Positions 26,104 through 48,055 of a stretch of 64,000 bases of DNA are shown here, piece after piece (the first letter of the stretch is position 1; each line of letters starts with the position of its first letter). A program made the translations under genes and the position numbers. The DNA is from an uncultured Metabacillus sp. (GTDB taxonomy: Bacteria; Bacillota; Bacilli; Bacillales; Bacillaceae): positions 124,001-188,000 of the forward strand of contig NZ_CANNCR010000002.1 of the NCBI RefSeq assembly GCF_947503125.1, in the 5' to 3' direction. The notes beneath the pieces were generated by a model that worked only from the letters and a program-made list of their open reading frames with translations, searched no databases and was not told the origin of the DNA.

Positions 26104-26133
26104 AAAATAATATAAATAAATTTAATATACATA

Positions 26134-26162
26134 TTGCATTCCCGTCCAATATATAGTACACT
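26134..26162 (+). promoter_or_regulatory. aimR promoter region
   Basis: TTGCAT and TACACT are 17 bp apart. The 16 bases CAATATATAGTACACT (26147-26162) are repeated exactly in front of the comX-like operon at 39957-39972. A TAAATAAATTTAAT copy of the dispersed motif lies about 20 bp upstream (26114 on). Confidence 0.65.
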
Positions 26163-26207: not shown

Positions 26208-27374
26208 ATGTCAGATCTAAAACAGATGATGAAAAATAAGTTTGATGAAAACAGAGGCTTACTTAAAGAAGTTGCAATTGCAGTAGGATTAGATAGCTCT
26301 TCAACATTATCTAAATGGTTGGATGATCCTAGGAAAGAATTGGCAGACTTCAATGTGTTAGTTTCTACTGTAAAGTATCTATACCCTGACAAAGAGTATG
26401 ACCTAATAAGCGAACACAGTTTAACGTTAGATCCTAAGAAACAGGCATCCAGACAGGCTTTAGAGTATGCAGATGTCAATCATCTTGGAGAATTAGCAGA
26501 CAGATTAATTATTCGTTTAAAGGAAGCGAAAAATGCTACGAGTAACGAATGGGCAGCCGTGTATGAATTACATAGAAAACTTTCAACTGGTGAATACAGT
26601 GTACTTCAAGCAAATGATAGGTTGTGTGGAATATCAATTAAATCTGATGAAATGAAAGTATTTAGCAAAGTAATGTTTTTATATCAATATCTAAATAAAA
26701 GAGAATTTAACAGATTAGATGAGACTATTTCTTATATTAACATGGATTTAGTGGAAGGTTTCTCAAGTGAATACGTTAAAAACTCATACAGAGCAAGAAT
26801 ACTGATGTTAAAAGCGAATGCTTGTTTGTTTGATAGGAAGTTAGAAGAAACAAGAAAATATGTTAATGAATGCTTAGAAATTACTGATACAGTTAGATTT
26901 TTAGCATTTGGTTATATGAACATGGGCAACACTTATATGTTTGAAAGCTATGATAAAGCTAAAGAATTCTTTTTAAAGGGGTTGGAATCATGTCAACATA
27001 GGGATATTTATAAATATGAGCTAAAATTAAGTTTGTCTTTCTTGGCCAATTACTGGGGAAAGGAAAACAAGTATCTAGCCGAATATTCAGATGATGCAGA
27101 TGATTTACAAGAAATTGCTTTTTGGAATATTAAAAATGGTAACAAGGAAAAGGCATTAGAGATACTAAATAGCACCAATAAAGATGATTTAGACAATTTT
27201 CAATTGGCCTTTGATAGTTACTTTAGAGGATTGATCACCCTAGAGAAAGATCACTTCTATGACTCAATTGAGTATTTCATATTAGCTGGTGATAAGTTCT
27301 ATAGAACTGCGCCACTAATTGAATTAAAAAAACTAGGGGAGAGTGAAAGATCATTGAAGATATTCGCTATGTAA
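26208..27374 (+). CDS. aimR: arbitrium receptor and transcription regulator AimR
   Basis: The 388-aa protein matches AimR in length and layout: an N-terminal helix-turn-helix (about residues 1-50, AIAVGLDSSSTLSKWLDDP) followed by TPR repeats. Family-typical segments include ALEYADVNHLGELADRLI and, near the end, YDSIEYFILAGDKFYRTAPL. In SPbeta-group phages AimR promotes lysis until it binds the AimP-derived peptide. I choose the ATG at 26208, 5 bases after AGGTGA; a GTG at 26199 lies inside that site. The gene is followed by aimP after 37 bases, with the aimP ribosome binding site in a hairpin next to the aimR stop. Confidence 0.95.
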   Translation: MSDLKQMMKNKFDENRGLLKEVAIAVGLDSSSTLSKWLDDPRKELADFNVLVSTVKYLYPDKEYDLISEHSLTLDPKKQASRQALEYADVNHLGELADRLIIRLKEAKNATSNEWAAVYELHRKLSTGEYSVLQANDRLCGISIKSDEMKVFSKVMFLYQYLNKREFNRLDETISYINMDLVEGFSSEYVKNSYRARILMLKANACLFDRKLEETRKYVNECLEITDTVRFLAFGYMNMGNTYMFESYDKAKEFFLKGLESCQHRDIYKYELKLSLSFLANYWGKENKYLAEYSDDADDLQEIAFWNIKNGNKEKALEILNSTNKDDLDNFQLAFDSYFRGLITLEKDHFYDSIEYFILAGDKFYRTAPLIELKKLGESERSLKIFAM

Positions 27375-27376
27375 TT

Positions 27377-27400
27377 ACCTCCTTCTATTTGAAAGGAGGT
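27377..27400 (+). promoter_or_regulatory. hairpin masking the aimP ribosome binding site
   Basis: ACCTCCTT (27377-27384) pairs perfectly with AAGGAGGT (27393-27400), which is the aimP ribosome binding site. The hairpin begins two bases after the aimR stop, so a ribosome ending aimR would open it. This predicts that aimP is translated only when aimR is. Confidence 0.7.
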
Positions 27401-27411
27401 GACAATATACC

Positions 27412-27540
27412 ATGAAAAAAGGAATTATCGTAACATTGGTAGCTGTAGCATTATTTGCTGCTGGTTTTGGACTTGGAGTATCTGTTAAGACAGTTGAAGA
27501 AAAACCACAAATCACATATCGTCCAGGAGTAGGAGCATAA
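27412..27540 (+). CDS. aimP: arbitrium peptide precursor AimP
   Basis: The 42-aa product has a Lys-Lys start, a hydrophobic secretion helix at about residues 5-24 (IIVTLVAVALFAAGFGLG), a polar pro-region and the C-terminus ITYRPGVGA. By analogy with SAIRGA and GMPRGA, the mature signal should be the last six residues, RPGVGA, which keep the Gly-Ala end but lack the usual Arg before it. The gene lies directly after aimR. Exact cleavage is inferred. Confidence 0.9.
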   Translation: MKKGIIVTLVAVALFAAGFGLGVSVKTVEEKPQITYRPGVGA

Positions 27541-37806: not shown

Positions 37807-38778
37807 ATGGCTGAATTATATAATCAAGAAATTAAAGAGGATTTTTTAAGTCAATATCCAGAAAATACACGTGAGACTTATAGATATGTATTCATAAGAA
37901 GTAAAGCTACAGAAGAAATTATAGGAAGAGATCTATATACTTTTTCAGCAGACGAAATAATATTAACACTTAAAGACGCAAATCACACAACATTAAACGC
38001 AATTAGACATTCATGGAATATCATTAAATTATATCTAGATTGGTCTGCAAAATATCGTGATACCAGTATTAATCAAGCTAAAAACATTACAATGGATGAG
38101 CTTAGAGAATGTCTTGATAAAAGTAAGAAACTTTATATGACAGAAGAAGAACTTATTGAAATAGAAAATAAAGCTGCAAACGCACAAGATATAGTTGCTT
38201 TACGCTTAATATTTGAAGGTGTTGGAGGAACAAGTTTATCAGAGGTTTGCAATTTAAACTATAATGATATTGATTGGAATAACAATAAACTAAAACTTAA
38301 AGATGATAAACATGGTGAAAGAGAGATAGAAGTAAGCGATAGATGTATGAGTATTATTAAAAGTGCCTATAATCAAGATGTTTATTTAAAGAATAATGGA
38401 GAATCTACAGCAAGAAATCCCGAAGCACCACTTTTAAAATCAGATTATATTTTACAAAACATCCAAACTAACCTTACAAAAAATCTAAATGGTGTAGACA
38501 GGCATACAATATACAGAAGGGTTACTACTTTAAGTGAATCGTATAATCTTCCATATCTGACTCCAAAGGGCGTAGAGAAATCAGGTATGATCAAATATGC
38601 CTACGACTTATATAAAAAAAGTGGAAAGTTAGATAATGAAGAATTAGAAAAAGTTGCAGACAGATTTAGTGTTCGTAAAGTGAAAATAGCCGGAGTATAC
38701 AAATATAACTATCAAACCTTAAGAGAATTTATTAACATGGATAACATTAAAGAATTATATTTGAATGATGAAGAATAA
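37807..38778 (+). CDS. yopR: master lysogeny repressor, YopR/MrpR-like
   Basis: The 323-aa protein has an N-terminal SAM-like domain (NTRETYRYVFIRSKATEEI) and a recombinase-like C-terminal fold (ALRLIFEGVGGTSLSEVCNLNYNDIDW), but the catalytic Arg and HxxR residues of integrases are missing. SPbeta YopR (MrpR) is exactly such an inactive-integrase fold that represses the phage by binding dispersed operators. Position and order match. I infer that it binds the GATAAATTTAAT-like motif. GAGGTAG precedes the ATG. Confidence 0.88.
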   Translation: MAELYNQEIKEDFLSQYPENTRETYRYVFIRSKATEEIIGRDLYTFSADEIILTLKDANHTTLNAIRHSWNIIKLYLDWSAKYRDTSINQAKNITMDELRECLDKSKKLYMTEEELIEIENKAANAQDIVALRLIFEGVGGTSLSEVCNLNYNDIDWNNNKLKLKDDKHGEREIEVSDRCMSIIKSAYNQDVYLKNNGESTARNPEAPLLKSDYILQNIQTNLTKNLNGVDRHTIYRRVTTLSESYNLPYLTPKGVEKSGMIKYAYDLYKKSGKLDNEELEKVADRFSVRKVKIAGVYKYNYQTLREFINMDNIKELYLNDEE

Positions 38779-39842: not shown

Positions 39843-39937
39843 ACGCAATATCAACGAAAGTGAGTTGCGGTATATCGCAAAATGTACGCAGTTAGTGAAC
39901 TACGGTATACCGCAAAAAATAGGCGAATAAATTGCGA
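39843..39937 (+). promoter_or_regulatory. cluster of ComA-box-like sites
   Basis: The known ComA box is TTGCGG-N4-CCGCAA. Here TTGCGGTATATCGCAA (39865-39880) has one mismatch and CTACGGTATACCGCAA (39900-39915) has two; half-sites ACGCAA (39843) and TTGCGA (39932) flank them. The last half-site lies just upstream of the promoter of the comX-like operon, as in known ComA targets. This implies activation by phosphorylated host ComA. Confidence 0.8.
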
Positions 39938-39943
39938 TATGTA

Positions 39944-39972
39944 TTTTCAAAATGCTCAATATATAGTACACT
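39944..39972 (+). promoter_or_regulatory. promoter of the comX/comP-like operon
   Basis: TTTTCA and TACACT are 17 bp apart; a TATAAT at 39976 is an alternative -10. The stretch CAATATATAGTACACT (39957-39972) is identical to that before aimR. The poor -35 fits an activator-dependent promoter. Confidence 0.6.
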
Positions 39973-40011
39973 GATTATAATGCCATATATTACAAAGAGA
40001 GGAAGATCACT

Positions 40012-40191
40012 TTGCGTATAGGTAGTATCATTGCACATTTAATTAATAAAGACAACGAGGAAGAAAAAAATGCAGTCTTAACAAGCAAAGCAAGTTTGTT
40101 AAATGTAGATGAAATTGAATTAATGTCTATAAAACAAGTATTAATGTTTGATGATAAATCATATATGGAGGATACAGAAGATGAAAGTTGA
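40012..40191 (+). CDS. possible ComX-like paralogue without tryptophan, TTG start
   Basis: The 59-aa ORF starts with TTG, 9 bases after AGAGG, and overlaps the comX-like gene by 11 bases. Its body (NAVLTSKASLLNVDEIELMS then IKQVLMFDDKSY) can be lined up with the next product (GKASPAERLSTKELLEVIK, then TIVSDKSS), suggesting a diverged duplicate. It ends DTEDES and has no Trp, so it cannot be an isoprenylated pheromone. It might be a decoy, a helper or an unrelated small protein. Confidence 0.6.
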   Translation: MRIGSIIAHLINKDNEEEKNAVLTSKASLLNVDEIELMSIKQVLMFDDKSYMEDTEDES

Positions 40192-40351
40192 GAAATTAAT
40201 TAATTACTTACAAAATAACCCACAAGAAGCCCTTGCAATTGTTGAAGGTAAAGCATCTCCAGCCGAACGACTTAGCACCAAAGAACTCTTAGAAGTAATT
40301 AAAACTATTGTATCAGATAAATCATCAAACTTGATGAAGTATTGGGGTTAA
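40181..40351 (+). CDS. comX: ComX-like pheromone precursor
   Basis: The 56-aa product follows TATGGAGG. It resembles ComX: an N-terminal VEKLINYLQNNPQEAL (ComX of B. subtilis 168 starts QDLINYFLNYPEAL), a helical middle, and a C-terminal tail LMKYWG with a single Trp next to the end. In ComX the Trp is isoprenylated by ComQ and the last 5-10 residues are released as pheromone. The gene lies 8 bases before a ComP-like kinase. No ComQ-like gene exists in the window, so modification must come from the host or be absent. Confidence 0.82.
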   Translation: MKVEKLINYLQNNPQEALAIVEGKASPAERLSTKELLEVIKTIVSDKSSNLMKYWG

Positions 40352-40359
40352 TATATAAA

Positions 40360-42642
40360 ATGAAGAAATGGTTCAATCTTTTTACAGTGTTGATAGCGAT
40401 AAGTGTCGCTCTAACACTGTATTTTTCTTATATTGTATTAAAGTATGATTATATTGGCGCTATGGTAGAAATCAAGGGGGATAAGGTTTATATTGCTGAT
40501 GTCGAACCTTTAACATGGGCAGATAAGAATTTAGAAATTGGAGACAGGGTATTATTAGTCAATGGCGAAAATCCTTTAAAATTTAAACCCATAAAAGAAT
40601 GGAATATGTTAGAACAAGCCAAGGTTGTTACTATTGAAAAAAGCAACGGAGAGTTAAAAAATCTTTCAGTAGAAGCAAATTTCGATAGTCAAATTGTGTT
40701 TATGTGGATCATACCATTGATAGTTATAGTGATAAGTATTTATTGTAGCTATTTAATATATAAAAGTTACAAGCGCTCTGAAAATACAAGAGAATCGGCC
40801 TTAATGCTAATTGTATTCTTATTCACCTTTTCTCTTGCGTACATGTGTGGAGGAGCATCTGCAAGAGGAGACAACTTTTCAAGAACTATTGTAGTGCTCT
40901 TATTAATTGCAACACCAGGTACCTATCTTCATTTTATGTACACTTATTATAAAGAATTGAATTTAGTTTGGTTTAGTAAAAAATGGATATGGATTTCATA
41001 TTTGATAATTCTAACAAACAGCATACTTGTGGAATTCGATCAAATATTTTTTGTTAACGGTACATTAACCAAAACTATAAACCTAGCAAGCTTTTTAGTA
41101 ATATTTATTATGGTTGCCTCCTTAATTGGAATTGGTTTAAAAAAGATAACATATAAGACACAAAAATATTTAATCCGAATATTAGTTATTTCTAATGCAT
41201 TTGCATTTTTACCGTTTTTACTTTTATACGTCTTACCTTATGTCTTATTTAAGGTGACAATTATTAGTCCAGTTTTTTTAACTGGATTTTTAATGATCAT
41301 CCCATTTTCATTAGTTTATCAATTCTTAGCCACAAAAATATATGATATTGAATTTATTGTCGGCAGGATAAAATATTACAGCCTAATCATTACCGTTCCA
41401 TCCGTTGTAACTGTATTAATGGTAATTAATATTAAATCAGAAAATGTAACAGTATTCTCAATTAGAACATTTATAATTATTTTCCTATTAATGTTTGCCA
41501 CCCTATACCTTAAGGAAGTTTTTGATTTCAAGTTTAAGCTGAATAGATTTTCTGAGAAATTAAACTATCAAGATAGATTAACAGTATACACACAAAAAAT
41601 AAGGATTGCTAAAAATATATATGAGGTATCCAGCATCTTAAAACAAACAATAGTAGATGTCATGTTGATAAATGAGGCTTATTTACTTGAGATTGATAAA
41701 GATGGTCGTCTAGCTGATTCATTGAGCCACAAGAGATGGTTATTTGATAAGTATTTGGATAATATAAATTCCTTAAGGGATGAAATAGGTAGAATAGAAG
41801 AAATAGATAAAGGGTTTCTTTTAAATATTGGAGAAGCTGAGAATAAAACATATATTATTTTAGCATTATCGGATATAAATACTCCAATATTAACTATAGA
41901 TGAAAAGCAGTGGTTAAACAATTTGGCATACTATACAAATGTAACACTAGAAAACTTTGTAAAAATTGAGCATCTAATGGAGAACCTAGAGGAATTAGAA
42001 AATAATCCAACATGGTTAAACAAGATTGTATTTAACTTAGAGGAAAAGCAACGCTCTGAATTAGCAAAGGATTTACATGACTCTGTGTTACAGGATTTGA
42101 TAAATACAAAAAGGAAAACCGAAGTTTTGTATTCCAAATATAAAAACATGGACGAAGAAGATATTGAGAAAGAGTTTCATGACCTAATAGACGGCATGAG
42201 TAAATCAATTGAGATTACTAGGAAAACCTGTCATGAATTGAGACCACAATTCTTATATGACTTAGGATTGGATAATGCCTTAAAGAAACTTGTTAATCAG
42301 CATCAAAATAACAGATATAGAATAACAATTGCAACAAGTAATTTAGATCAGTCAATCTCAGAAGATGTACAATTAAACTTGTACCGAATTACTCAAGAGT
42401 TATTGAACAATGCAAAGAAACATTCAGAAGCAAAAAATGTCAGATTAATTGTGGTAAAAACTAAAGATAAAATTGTGCTACATTATGAAGATGATGGACT
42501 TGGTGAAGATTTAGACTTTGTTCTAAACAAAGAGGGTAGTATGGGACTGTCCGGTATAAGAGAGCGTGTAAGAGTGCTCGATGGAACAATTGACATACAG
42601 ACTGAACCAGGTCAAGGATTTAAGGTTGTAATTGAGGTATAA
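40360..42642 (+). CDS. comP: ComP-like membrane sensor histidine kinase
   Basis: The 760-aa protein (B. subtilis ComP is about 770) has a first helix at residues 7-28, an extracytoplasmic PDZ-like loop at about 30-110 (IGDRVLLVNGENP), then roughly nine more helices to about residue 385. The cytoplasmic part has a HisKA_3 phosphorylation site LAKDLHDSVLQ (His573), N-box ELLNNAKKH, and G-boxes DDGLGED and GLSGIRERV. ComP senses ComX and phosphorylates ComA. No response regulator is encoded nearby, so the probable partner is host ComA. Confidence 0.92.
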   Translation: MKKWFNLFTVLIAISVALTLYFSYIVLKYDYIGAMVEIKGDKVYIADVEPLTWADKNLEIGDRVLLVNGENPLKFKPIKEWNMLEQAKVVTIEKSNGELKNLSVEANFDSQIVFMWIIPLIVIVISIYCSYLIYKSYKRSENTRESALMLIVFLFTFSLAYMCGGASARGDNFSRTIVVLLLIATPGTYLHFMYTYYKELNLVWFSKKWIWISYLIILTNSILVEFDQIFFVNGTLTKTINLASFLVIFIMVASLIGIGLKKITYKTQKYLIRILVISNAFAFLPFLLLYVLPYVLFKVTIISPVFLTGFLMIIPFSLVYQFLATKIYDIEFIVGRIKYYSLIITVPSVVTVLMVINIKSENVTVFSIRTFIIIFLLMFATLYLKEVFDFKFKLNRFSEKLNYQDRLTVYTQKIRIAKNIYEVSSILKQTIVDVMLINEAYLLEIDKDGRLADSLSHKRWLFDKYLDNINSLRDEIGRIEEIDKGFLLNIGEAENKTYIILALSDINTPILTIDEKQWLNNLAYYTNVTLENFVKIEHLMENLEELENNPTWLNKIVFNLEEKQRSELAKDLHDSVLQDLINTKRKTEVLYSKYKNMDEEDIEKEFHDLIDGMSKSIEITRKTCHELRPQFLYDLGLDNALKKLVNQHQNNRYRITIATSNLDQSISEDVQLNLYRITQELLNNAKKHSEAKNVRLIVVKTKDKIVLHYEDDGLGEDLDFVLNKEGSMGLSGIRERVRVLDGTIDIQTEPGQGFKVVIEV

Positions 42643-42671
42643 GAGCTGCTAAATGTAGCTCTTATTTTTTT
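42641..42671 (+). terminator. terminator of the comX/comP-like operon
   Basis: AAGAGCT and AGCTCTT are perfect arms, then ATTTTTTT. The stem begins inside the comP-like stop codon. Confidence 0.9.
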
Positions 42672-46547: not shown

Positions 46548-47300
46548 TTGATTGAATTGAACAAAATTTATAATGAAGACTGTTTGATAGGAATGAAAAG
46601 AATTAAAGATAGATCGATTGATATGATTCTTTGCGATTTGCCTTACGGAGTTACAGCAAGGAATAAGTGGGATCAAATTATTCCCTTTGATGAGCTATGG
46701 GAACACTATAATAGAATTATAAAAGATGATGGAGCTATTGTATTGTTTGCGAATGGAATGTTTACTGCTGACTTAATGCAAAGTAACCGTAAAAATTGGA
46801 AATATAATTTAGTTTGGGGAAAGGTTTTGCCTAGTGGTCATCTCAATGCTAAAAAACAACCAATGAGAGAACATGAAGATATATGCGTGTTTTATAAAAA
46901 ACAACCGACTTACAATCCTCAAATGGTGAAAGGTAAGCCTAGTCATAGCGTTGGTAAAGCAGAAGGAATCAGTCAGGAAGATCATTCACGTAACACTAAT
47001 TACGGAGAATTTAAAAAGGTTCAAACAGAAGGCGACATGAAATATCCTAAATCAATTTTAACATTTCAAAAACCACATCCTTCAACTACAATTCATCCGA
47101 CTCAGAAACCCGTTGAATTATGTGAATGGTTAATAAAAACTTATACGAACGAAGGTGAGACCGTTTTAGATAATTGTGCCGGATCAGGGACTACTTTAAT
47201 TGCAGCATTAAACACGAATAGAAATTTTATAGGTTTTGAATTAGAAGAAGAATACTATAATGGTGCGTTAGAACGAATTGAAAATACATATAAAAAATAA
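46548..47300 (+). CDS. beta-class DNA methyltransferase, DLPYG type
   Basis: The gene starts with TTG after AGGAGAG. Catalytic motif DLPYG (about residues 30-34) comes before the SAM-binding motif NCAGSGTT (about residues 210-217), the order of beta-group amino-methyltransferases, which modify adenine-N6 or cytosine-N4. A target-recognition region lies between. The IHPTQKP motif is present. No restriction nuclease is adjacent, so the enzyme likely protects phage DNA. The second methyltransferase follows after 26 bases. Confidence 0.92.
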   Translation: MIELNKIYNEDCLIGMKRIKDRSIDMILCDLPYGVTARNKWDQIIPFDELWEHYNRIIKDDGAIVLFANGMFTADLMQSNRKNWKYNLVWGKVLPSGHLNAKKQPMREHEDICVFYKKQPTYNPQMVKGKPSHSVGKAEGISQEDHSRNTNYGEFKKVQTEGDMKYPKSILTFQKPHPSTTIHPTQKPVELCEWLIKTYTNEGETVLDNCAGSGTTLIAALNTNRNFIGFELEEEYYNGALERIENTYKK

Positions 47301-47326
47301 ATTAATACAGTAAAGGAGATGTTTAT

Positions 47327-48055
47327 TTGATAGAATTAAATAAAATACATAAAGAAGACTGTCTAGAAGGCATGAAAAAGATTGAGGACAATAGTATTAA
47401 TTTAGTCATCACCGACCCTCCTTTTAAAATAGTGCAAGGTGGAGCTAAAACAAAAGGTAAAAATGCAATGGGTGGAACATTGGCACAGGGTAAAAGTGAA
47501 GTAAGCAGTGGGACATTGTTCAAACATAATGATATTAAGTTAAGTGATTGGATTCCAGAAGTTTATCGAGTATTAGAAGATGGCGGATTCTTCTATTGTT
47601 TCATTAATAGTTTAAACCTGAATGAGCTGTTAACTGTAGCTAAACAATCAAAATTTAAATTAAATAATGTATTGGTTATGATCAAGGATAACTGTGTTGT
47701 TAATCAATGGTATATGAAGAATGTTGAATATGTAGCATTCTTTAGAAAAGGAAAGGCTAAACCGTTAAATAACAGAGGAATTAAAACCGCAACTAATGCT
47801 ACTATGCCAAGTAAATCTGAAAAGATTCATCCTACACAGAAACCATTAGATTACGTGCAAATGCTTATTGAAAACTCATCACAGGAAAATGAGATTGTAT
47901 TTGATCCTTTTATGGGAAGTGCTACTACTGCTATTGCTGCGATCAATGCGAACAGGCAATATTTAGGATTTGAATTAGACGATGAGTATTACATATTGGG
48001 CAATGAAAGAATTAATAATACATATAAAAATAAATTAATATCACACAATATATAG
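47327..48055 (+). CDS. beta-class DNA methyltransferase, DPPF type
   Basis: The gene starts with TTG after AAGGAGATG. It shares layout with its neighbour: TDPPFKI (about residues 28-34), IHPTQKP and DPFMGSATT (about 201-209). The two starts (IELNKIYNEDCLIGMKRI and IELNKIHKEDCLEGMKKI) are alike, so they arose by duplication, but the target regions differ, implying two recognition sites. A CAATATATAGTA sequence, part of the aimR/comX promoter word, overlaps its end. Confidence 0.92.
   Translation: MIELNKIHKEDCLEGMKKIEDNSINLVITDPPFKIVQGGAKTKGKNAMGGTLAQGKSEVSSGTLFKHNDIKLSDWIPEVYRVLEDGGFFYCFINSLNLNELLTVAKQSKFKLNNVLVMIKDNCVVNQWYMKNVEYVAFFRKGKAKPLNNRGIKTATNATMPSKSEKIHPTQKPLDYVQMLIENSSQENEIVFDPFMGSATTAIAAINANRQYLGFELDDEYYILGNERINNTYKNKLISHNI

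Follow-up and report, generated by a model that had tools for sequence, protein, structure and literature searches.

The stretch of DNA analysed here (hereafter the window) comprises 64,000 nucleotides from an uncultured Metabacillus sp. (C2:124001-188000 in a genome of 5.44 Mb and 244 contigs) and carries, within what we class as part of an SPbeta-like prophage, a tricistronic operon for a ComX-type pheromone precursor and a ComP-type membrane histidine kinase. All positions below are those of the window, and the 114-kb scans covered C2:94001-208000 of the same contig. The operon runs on the plus strand in the order ORF59, comX, comP and a terminator-like hairpin. The first open reading frame (ORF), ORF59 (40012..40191), has a TTG start, encodes 59 aa and overlaps comX by 11 nt; comX (40181..40351) encodes a 56-aa precursor that ends in ...LMKYWG, with its sole tryptophan (Trp) at position 55; and comP, whose ATG stands at 40360 after a gap of 8 bases, encodes an intact kinase of 760 aa (40360..42642), followed by an intrinsic terminator-like hairpin at the operon end (42639..42665, hairpin scan). 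ComP matches host ComP over the full length and combines HisKA_3 (1.5e-8) and HATPase_c (3e-9) domains with eight hydrophobic segments (simple scan) and intact signature boxes, namely an H-box LHDSVLQDL, an N-box QELLNNA and the G-boxes. An initial annotation of this DNA had spotted the operon and had placed the ComX-like ORF, its single Trp beside the C-terminus and the full-length kinase 8 bases further on, with His site and ATP-binding boxes intact, exactly as we find them; it did not recognise ORF59 as the first gene, and it overlooked both the arbitrium system that this phage carries and the relatives on chromosomes described below.

The two small proteins were identified with a custom profile built from 48 ComX sequences encoded beside comP at other loci (none from this phage, some species represented twice). 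When all 439 window ORFs of at least 30 aa were scored, comX (E 1.6e-7) and ORF59 (E 2.1e-6) ranked first and second, the third-ranked ORF having an E of 1.4. A lack of ComX similarity in profile searches, which the initial annotation had listed among its refuting conditions, is thus not what this profile shows, whereas the Pfam model (below) gives no significant score. In a 15-locus search, comX was 36% identical to the ComX of genome G110 (E 2e-10), and ORF59 was 48% identical to its homologue there (E 5.5e-9). By profile similarity ORF59 is thus a member of the ComX family, and because a C-terminal Trp is absent from all four aligned sequences (that of the phage and three homologues), we do not class it as a pheromone.

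The phage-borne nature of the operon, asserted by the initial annotation, is borne out, and the element is more exactly an integrated prophage, as MrpR, AimR and a XerC-like recombinase place it in the SPbeta-like group. The MrpR/YopR-like lysogeny master repressor is encoded at 37807..38778 (plus strand; PF22823 3e-28, PF22822 7e-24), and the arbitrium receptor AimR at 26208..27374 (plus strand; PF22871 4e-83; 37-39% identity to AimR of phi3T and Goe14). The prophage also encodes a DndB/YopQ-like protein; it contains the order xerC-yopQ-yopR-reverse small gene that marks SPbeta-like phages, and its aimR, aimP-like, xerC-like, yopQ-like and mrpR genes follow one another as in phage Goe14 (aimR-aimP-...-xerC-yopQ-yopR-reverse gene-yopT).

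Host partners and related cassettes

The phage locus lacks the four-gene adjacency comQ-comX-comP-comA. With the host proteins as tblastn queries (E<=1), ComQ had no match in the 114 kb, and no comA gene was found there, the only trace being one 35-aa fragment (E 0.3); the absence of both genes that the initial annotation had noted for the window, along with the search for a ComQ-like gene in the rest of the element that it had proposed, thereby extends to the 114 kb. Elsewhere in the genome lies a single complete degQ-comQ-comX-comP-comA-yuxO locus with the only comQ copy (E<=1e-5), so the host supplies in trans the genes for the enzyme and the regulator that the phage lacks. A host without ComA, which the initial annotation had named as fatal to its proposal, is therefore not what we are dealing with.

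Phage and host ComP are 45% identical over residues 8-760, the identity being lowest in the membrane sensor half (40%) and higher in the phospho-acceptor (54%) and ATPase (52%) domains. Around the histidine the phage protein resembles host ComP and not the two other host kinases compared (of three, L003 not included), which differ strongly there. In the genus, 21 of 21 genomes searched have a ComP match with E<=1e-60, and the phage protein is only 44-49% identical to any relative found.

The combination of ORF59, ComX and ComP with no adjacent comQ recurs in five other genomes: in G003, G079 and G110 the cassettes were read through, and those of G007 and G017 are known from search matches, with no comQ nearby. 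The two small genes overlap in G079 and G110, and in G003 a short gap separates ORF59 from the comX that follows it. By eye, the G079 cassette adjoins mrp antiporter genes; that of G110, which belongs to another family, lies between a gene for a coenzyme A-binding protein and a topoisomerase gene; and that of G003 has a convergent comA, with genes for an NprR-like regulator and a metalloprotease as neighbours. The canonical loci of these three genomes (L038 in G003, L068 in G079, L095 in G110) are split. In G079 and G110 they read degQ-comQ-comA with comX and comP missing, and each genome has one comQ and exactly one ComP match (E<=1e-25), located in the cassette; the unlinked cassette is therefore the only comXP there and must use the unlinked comA. 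In G003 the canonical locus reads degQ-comQ-comP, without comX or comA. In all three, the cassette must be served by an unlinked comQ.

Among 80 genomes of the family, 5 have a strong ORF59 match (E<1e-20), and among 397 of the order, 2 do, the window's own being counted in each; the weak matches to the ORF59 profile (8 of 80 and 14 of 397, respectively) are left out of the cassette count. Of the weak matches in the order, six were opened and set aside: L081, L082, L092 and L093 are ordinary ComX genes beside comQ, and at L080 and L084 neither comX nor comP was seen. A scan of genome contigs with ComP gave nine loci, eight of them ordinary with comQ and the ninth (L070) the G079 cassette. A match at 41% identity (L117) in CP021891.1, a record called a Bacillus velezensis plasmid, was considered as a mobile relative and rejected, as it lies in a chromosomal-looking stretch with the order degQ-comQXPA-yuxO-mrp. 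Other departures from the canonical arrangement were also seen. L044 (G004, same genus) has degQ, comP and comA in order, the stretch examined matching neither comQ nor comX, and L050 and L051 (G011 and G015) hold a second, divergent comX-comP-comA set, with no comQ in the stretch examined, whose ComX is 45-47% and whose ComA is about 36% identical to the host protein; the L050 set adjoins a phosphopantetheinyl-transferase-like ORF (by eye).

The ComPs that accompany ORF59 group together. In the first and wider tree (45 rows), the three rows labelled as cassettes did not form one clade; they fell within a fork (94/99) whose other three rows, L045-L047, likewise carry ORF59 (checked at the locus for L045 and through genome search for L046 and L047). 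After six distant rows were dropped (L048-L051, L066 and L067), a single branch (100/99) of the rebuilt 39-row tree set the six ORF59-bearing ComPs apart from the rest, and the same split was recovered at 100/99 without G110 (L063 left out, 38 rows). The relabelling to six rows came after the first tree, whereas whether a row bears ORF59 was decided on the DNA. One may tentatively, at somewhat under even odds, propose a portable split form of ComQXPA, so far undescribed, in which a Trp-less ComX paralogue would allow a comXP pair to work with unlinked ComQ and ComA, and which was captured by an arbitrium phage and placed under ComA control.

Candidate ComA boxes and the operon promoter

Upstream of the operon, a scan with the ComA inverted-repeat consensus TTGCGG-N4-CCGCAA returned the two sites that the initial annotation had described, on the plus strand: candidate box 1, TTGCGGtataTCGCAA, at 39865..39880 with one mismatch, and, 35 bp after it, candidate box 2, CTACGGtataCCGCAA, at 39900..39915 with two. 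They stand ahead of the promoter, in the position that the ComA motif calls for. Judged from the letters, a lone putative half-site CGCAA lies at 39844..39848, and a degenerate direct repeat, AGGCGA-5nt-TTGCGA (39921..39937, plus strand, by eye), may stand between box 2 and the -35 element, an arrangement that recalls ComA promoters in which, in the part of the source consulted, a direct repeat follows the inverted repeat before the -35 (PMC4797271). The promoter beginning at 39944, proposed by the initial annotation, is present as TTTTCA-17-TACACT (39944..39972, plus strand), and it is weak, being absent from the promoter scan's list at 9 of 12 matches.

In a test against chance, dinucleotide shuffles of the window (300) gave a mean of 0.25 sites with at most two mismatches, none of the 300 produced two such sites within 100 bp, and boxes 1 and 2 are the only sites of this quality in the 114 kb. 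They also resemble the boxes at degQ: upstream of that gene, a box with at most two mismatches is found in 12 of the 12 genomes whose upstream sequence was long enough to check, the host included, and in eight of these it reads TTGCGGTATCACGCA followed by T or C (not counted are L026 and those loci, G110 among them, whose available sequence ahead of degQ does not exceed 120 bp). The promoters of the chromosomal cassettes scanned are free of such boxes, the best sites having 5 mismatches in G003 (237 bp), 4 in G079 (308 bp) and 4 in G110 (134 bp), L046 and L047 not being included. Because these three cassettes lack boxes, the boxes were probably gained within the phage.

It could be argued that the palindromes are sites for a phage regulator rather than for ComA, as the operon is a neighbour of the lysogeny module and shares with the aimR promoter an exact 16-mer, CAATATATAGTACACT, which at 39957-39972 overlaps the 3' part of the comX-operon promoter and whose only other exact copy in the 114 kb is at 26147-26162. 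We regard this as very improbable. The two boxes are found nowhere else in the 114 kb and not at all in the 71 kb of a sibling prophage, they look like the hosts' degQ boxes, and the phage's own repeat, AATATGTATATTNAATTTATT, which is exact at aimR (minus strand, 0 mismatches), is only weakly present at the operon. This repeat, a candidate operator or promoter element of the phage group, occurs with 0-1 mismatches and mostly on the minus strand at 26115, 79346, 81984, -3415 and -8054 (window coordinates, some outside it). The 16-mer CAATATATAGTACACT was first read as an MrpR site; that reading was dropped, and MrpR control of the operon is not claimed, because AATATGTATATTNAATTTATT is not convincing at the comX promoter.

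A proposed channel into host ComA

We favour, with a probability of roughly 0.6, the reading that a mobile ORF59-comX-comP cassette resides in an SPbeta-like temperate phage, is plugged into host ComQ and ComA and is subject to ComA-driven feedback. Phosphorylated host ComA (ComA-P) would bind the two boxes and switch on the weak operon promoter; host ComQ, acting in trans, would isoprenylate the Trp of pre-ComX in the course of its maturation; the exported pheromone would be sensed on lysogens by phage ComP, which in turn would phosphorylate host ComA. A rise in ComA-P would then raise both the host ComA regulon and the expression of the phage operon, so that lysogens, besides arbitrium, would have another input to the ComA decision, one that amplifies itself. 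ORF59 probably handles ComQ or ComX, as a helper or a decoy. What the initial annotation put forward, that the element sends a pheromone signal of its own or an altered one into the host network and closes a positive loop by way of host ComA, remains an inference that now has comparative support: comQ is unlinked to the related cassettes, as is comA in two of the genomes, and none of the three cassette promoters scanned has ComA boxes.

The sign of the loop is where the main rival enters. The cassette may instead act as a brake on ComA, if unliganded phage ComP is mainly a ComA-P phosphatase, if ORF59 and the host's ComX are rivals for ComQ, or both, so that negative feedback would damp the host quorum response (e.g. 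competence) until the phage pheromone is abundant. ORF59 and its three aligned homologues do have the look of a ComX leader that lacks the residue to be modified, ComA boxes would serve negative feedback equally well, and competence-suppressing prophages are known in pneumococcus, according to the part of PMC12637031 consulted. Yet no sequence feature examined marks ComP as phosphatase-biased, and the intact comX gene would be needless for a pure brake; we therefore hold this alternative to be unlikely, with perhaps one chance in a handful.

A number of results weigh against the favoured reading as well. Among 50,697 phage records searched by tblastn with ComP, 19 matched, each only to the kinase end, roughly one quarter of ComP, with identities of at most 34%, and none covered 80% of it; scans of viral contigs with ComP found none, a silence that is weak evidence because the same scans also missed relatives of the YopQ-like protein and of MrpR. 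Within the collections searched, this is the sole phage with the cassette. A sibling SPbeta-like prophage in G079 (C12, L112/L133), with an MrpR of 51% and an AimR of 66% identity, has neither cassette nor ComA boxes in its 71 kb, other small genes occupying the slot, and by annotation Goe14 and Geobacillus virus E3 have no cassette at the corresponding place, so the cassette is not core to the phage group. No further ComA box exists in the 114 kb and hence no evident phage target beyond the operon, from which it follows that, besides the operon, the regulon of host ComA and not a phage lytic gene is the evident recipient of the signal. In the whole genome there are 102 single sites with at most two mismatches against 82 for a reversed control pattern; as single boxes are near the genome background, the case for ComA rests on the pair, its placement and the comparison between genomes. 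The search against the Pfam ComX family (PF05952) that the initial annotation had proposed gave no match to phage ComX or phage ORF59 at E<=1, in which respect it disagrees with the custom profile; the family model also misses the ComX of G110 and gives that of G079 22.4 bits, under the 25-bit cut-off. The same model matches host ComX (35.6 bits), and with 27.0 bits the G110 homologue of ORF59 passes the gathering threshold of 25. Finally, the ComP branches of the phage and of G110 are long, and for this reason their sisterhood is not relied on.

The restriction to one phage, along with the other genes in the slot of the sibling prophage, would also suit a passenger, that is, a chromosomal comXP cassette acquired by the phage with no selected role there. 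The match in GC content between the operon (0.300) and the phage average (0.303) is neutral in this respect. We consider a passenger improbable, as all three genes are intact despite the 44-49% ComP identity, which implies long evolution under constraint, and as the boxes missing from the three chromosomal cassettes tested were probably acquired in the phage.

If ComA-driven feedback of the phage cassette is real, an open-loop bacterial system would have been turned into a closed loop, with autoinduction encoded by the phage and laid over the competence network of the host, and one phage would possess two peptide communication systems, one of them reaching the master regulator of the host quorum response. 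Phage steering of host competence and of community behaviour through the host's pheromone machinery thereby becomes testable. ComX and ComP, moreover, can travel apart from ComQ and ComA, and the ComX-like companion ORF59 is a candidate for how this is done.

Known systems and prophage neighbourhood

The cassette is best understood alongside three known systems. With the ComQXPA system of Bacillus, as portrayed in the portions of PMC7794433 and PMC4008528 consulted, it shares an adjacent and co-oriented pair of a ComX with a C-terminal Trp and a ComP of the same domains, with the partners ComQ and ComA present in the host of the phage; it differs in that the phage is without comQ and comA, adds the Trp-less ORF59 overlapping comX, and has its operon under apparent ComA boxes, whereas in Bacillus subtilis comQXPA signal production has no such feedback, as far as the text consulted goes (PMC7794433). 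The closest precedent that we found is the agrDBC set of the Clostridioides difficile phage phiCDHM1, which, in the described passages of PMC3901668, carries agrD, agrB and agrC and no response regulator (agrA), the authors proposing that the host's is used. Both phages thus bring a host-type peptide pheromone and a histidine kinase without a response regulator; phiCDHM1, however, belongs to the agr type, keeps the processing enzyme AgrB and, in those same passages, shows no target boxes for a host regulator. The arbitrium system AimR/AimP/AimX of SPbeta-group phages is likewise a peptide communication system, and of the same phage group, but AimR, according to the portion of PMC10516654 consulted, is intracellular and acts on phage genes, whereas ComX/ComP is a membrane two-component route to a host regulator. 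We found no report of a phage-borne ComX/ComP in the titles and opening abstract lines of the open-licence PubMed Central (PMC) literature or in passages of PMC8612742 and PMC10075063; in term searches, the word ComX is absent from two reviews of phage communication (PMC11945551, PMC13389391), and the words phage, orphan and plasmid are absent from the comQXPA census (PMC4008528).

The arbitrium genes themselves lie at 26208-27540, so that AimR with an AimP-like precursor and ComX/ComP occur in one prophage. The precursor (27412..27540, plus strand), identified by position and sequence only, ends in ...TYRPGVGA. Genes of phage DNA metabolism flank the operon on both sides (PHROGs, 20 ORFs tested), and the operon, which adjoins the lysogeny module, is preceded by a reverse helix-turn-helix gene and then a 95-aa ORF. 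This small phage gene (39467..39754, plus strand), the left edge of the cassette, has a weak homologue (28% identity, E 0.001) at the same position in the sibling prophage without the cassette. Downstream of the cassette, at 46548-48055, two neighbouring ORFs resemble DNA methyltransferases by eye.

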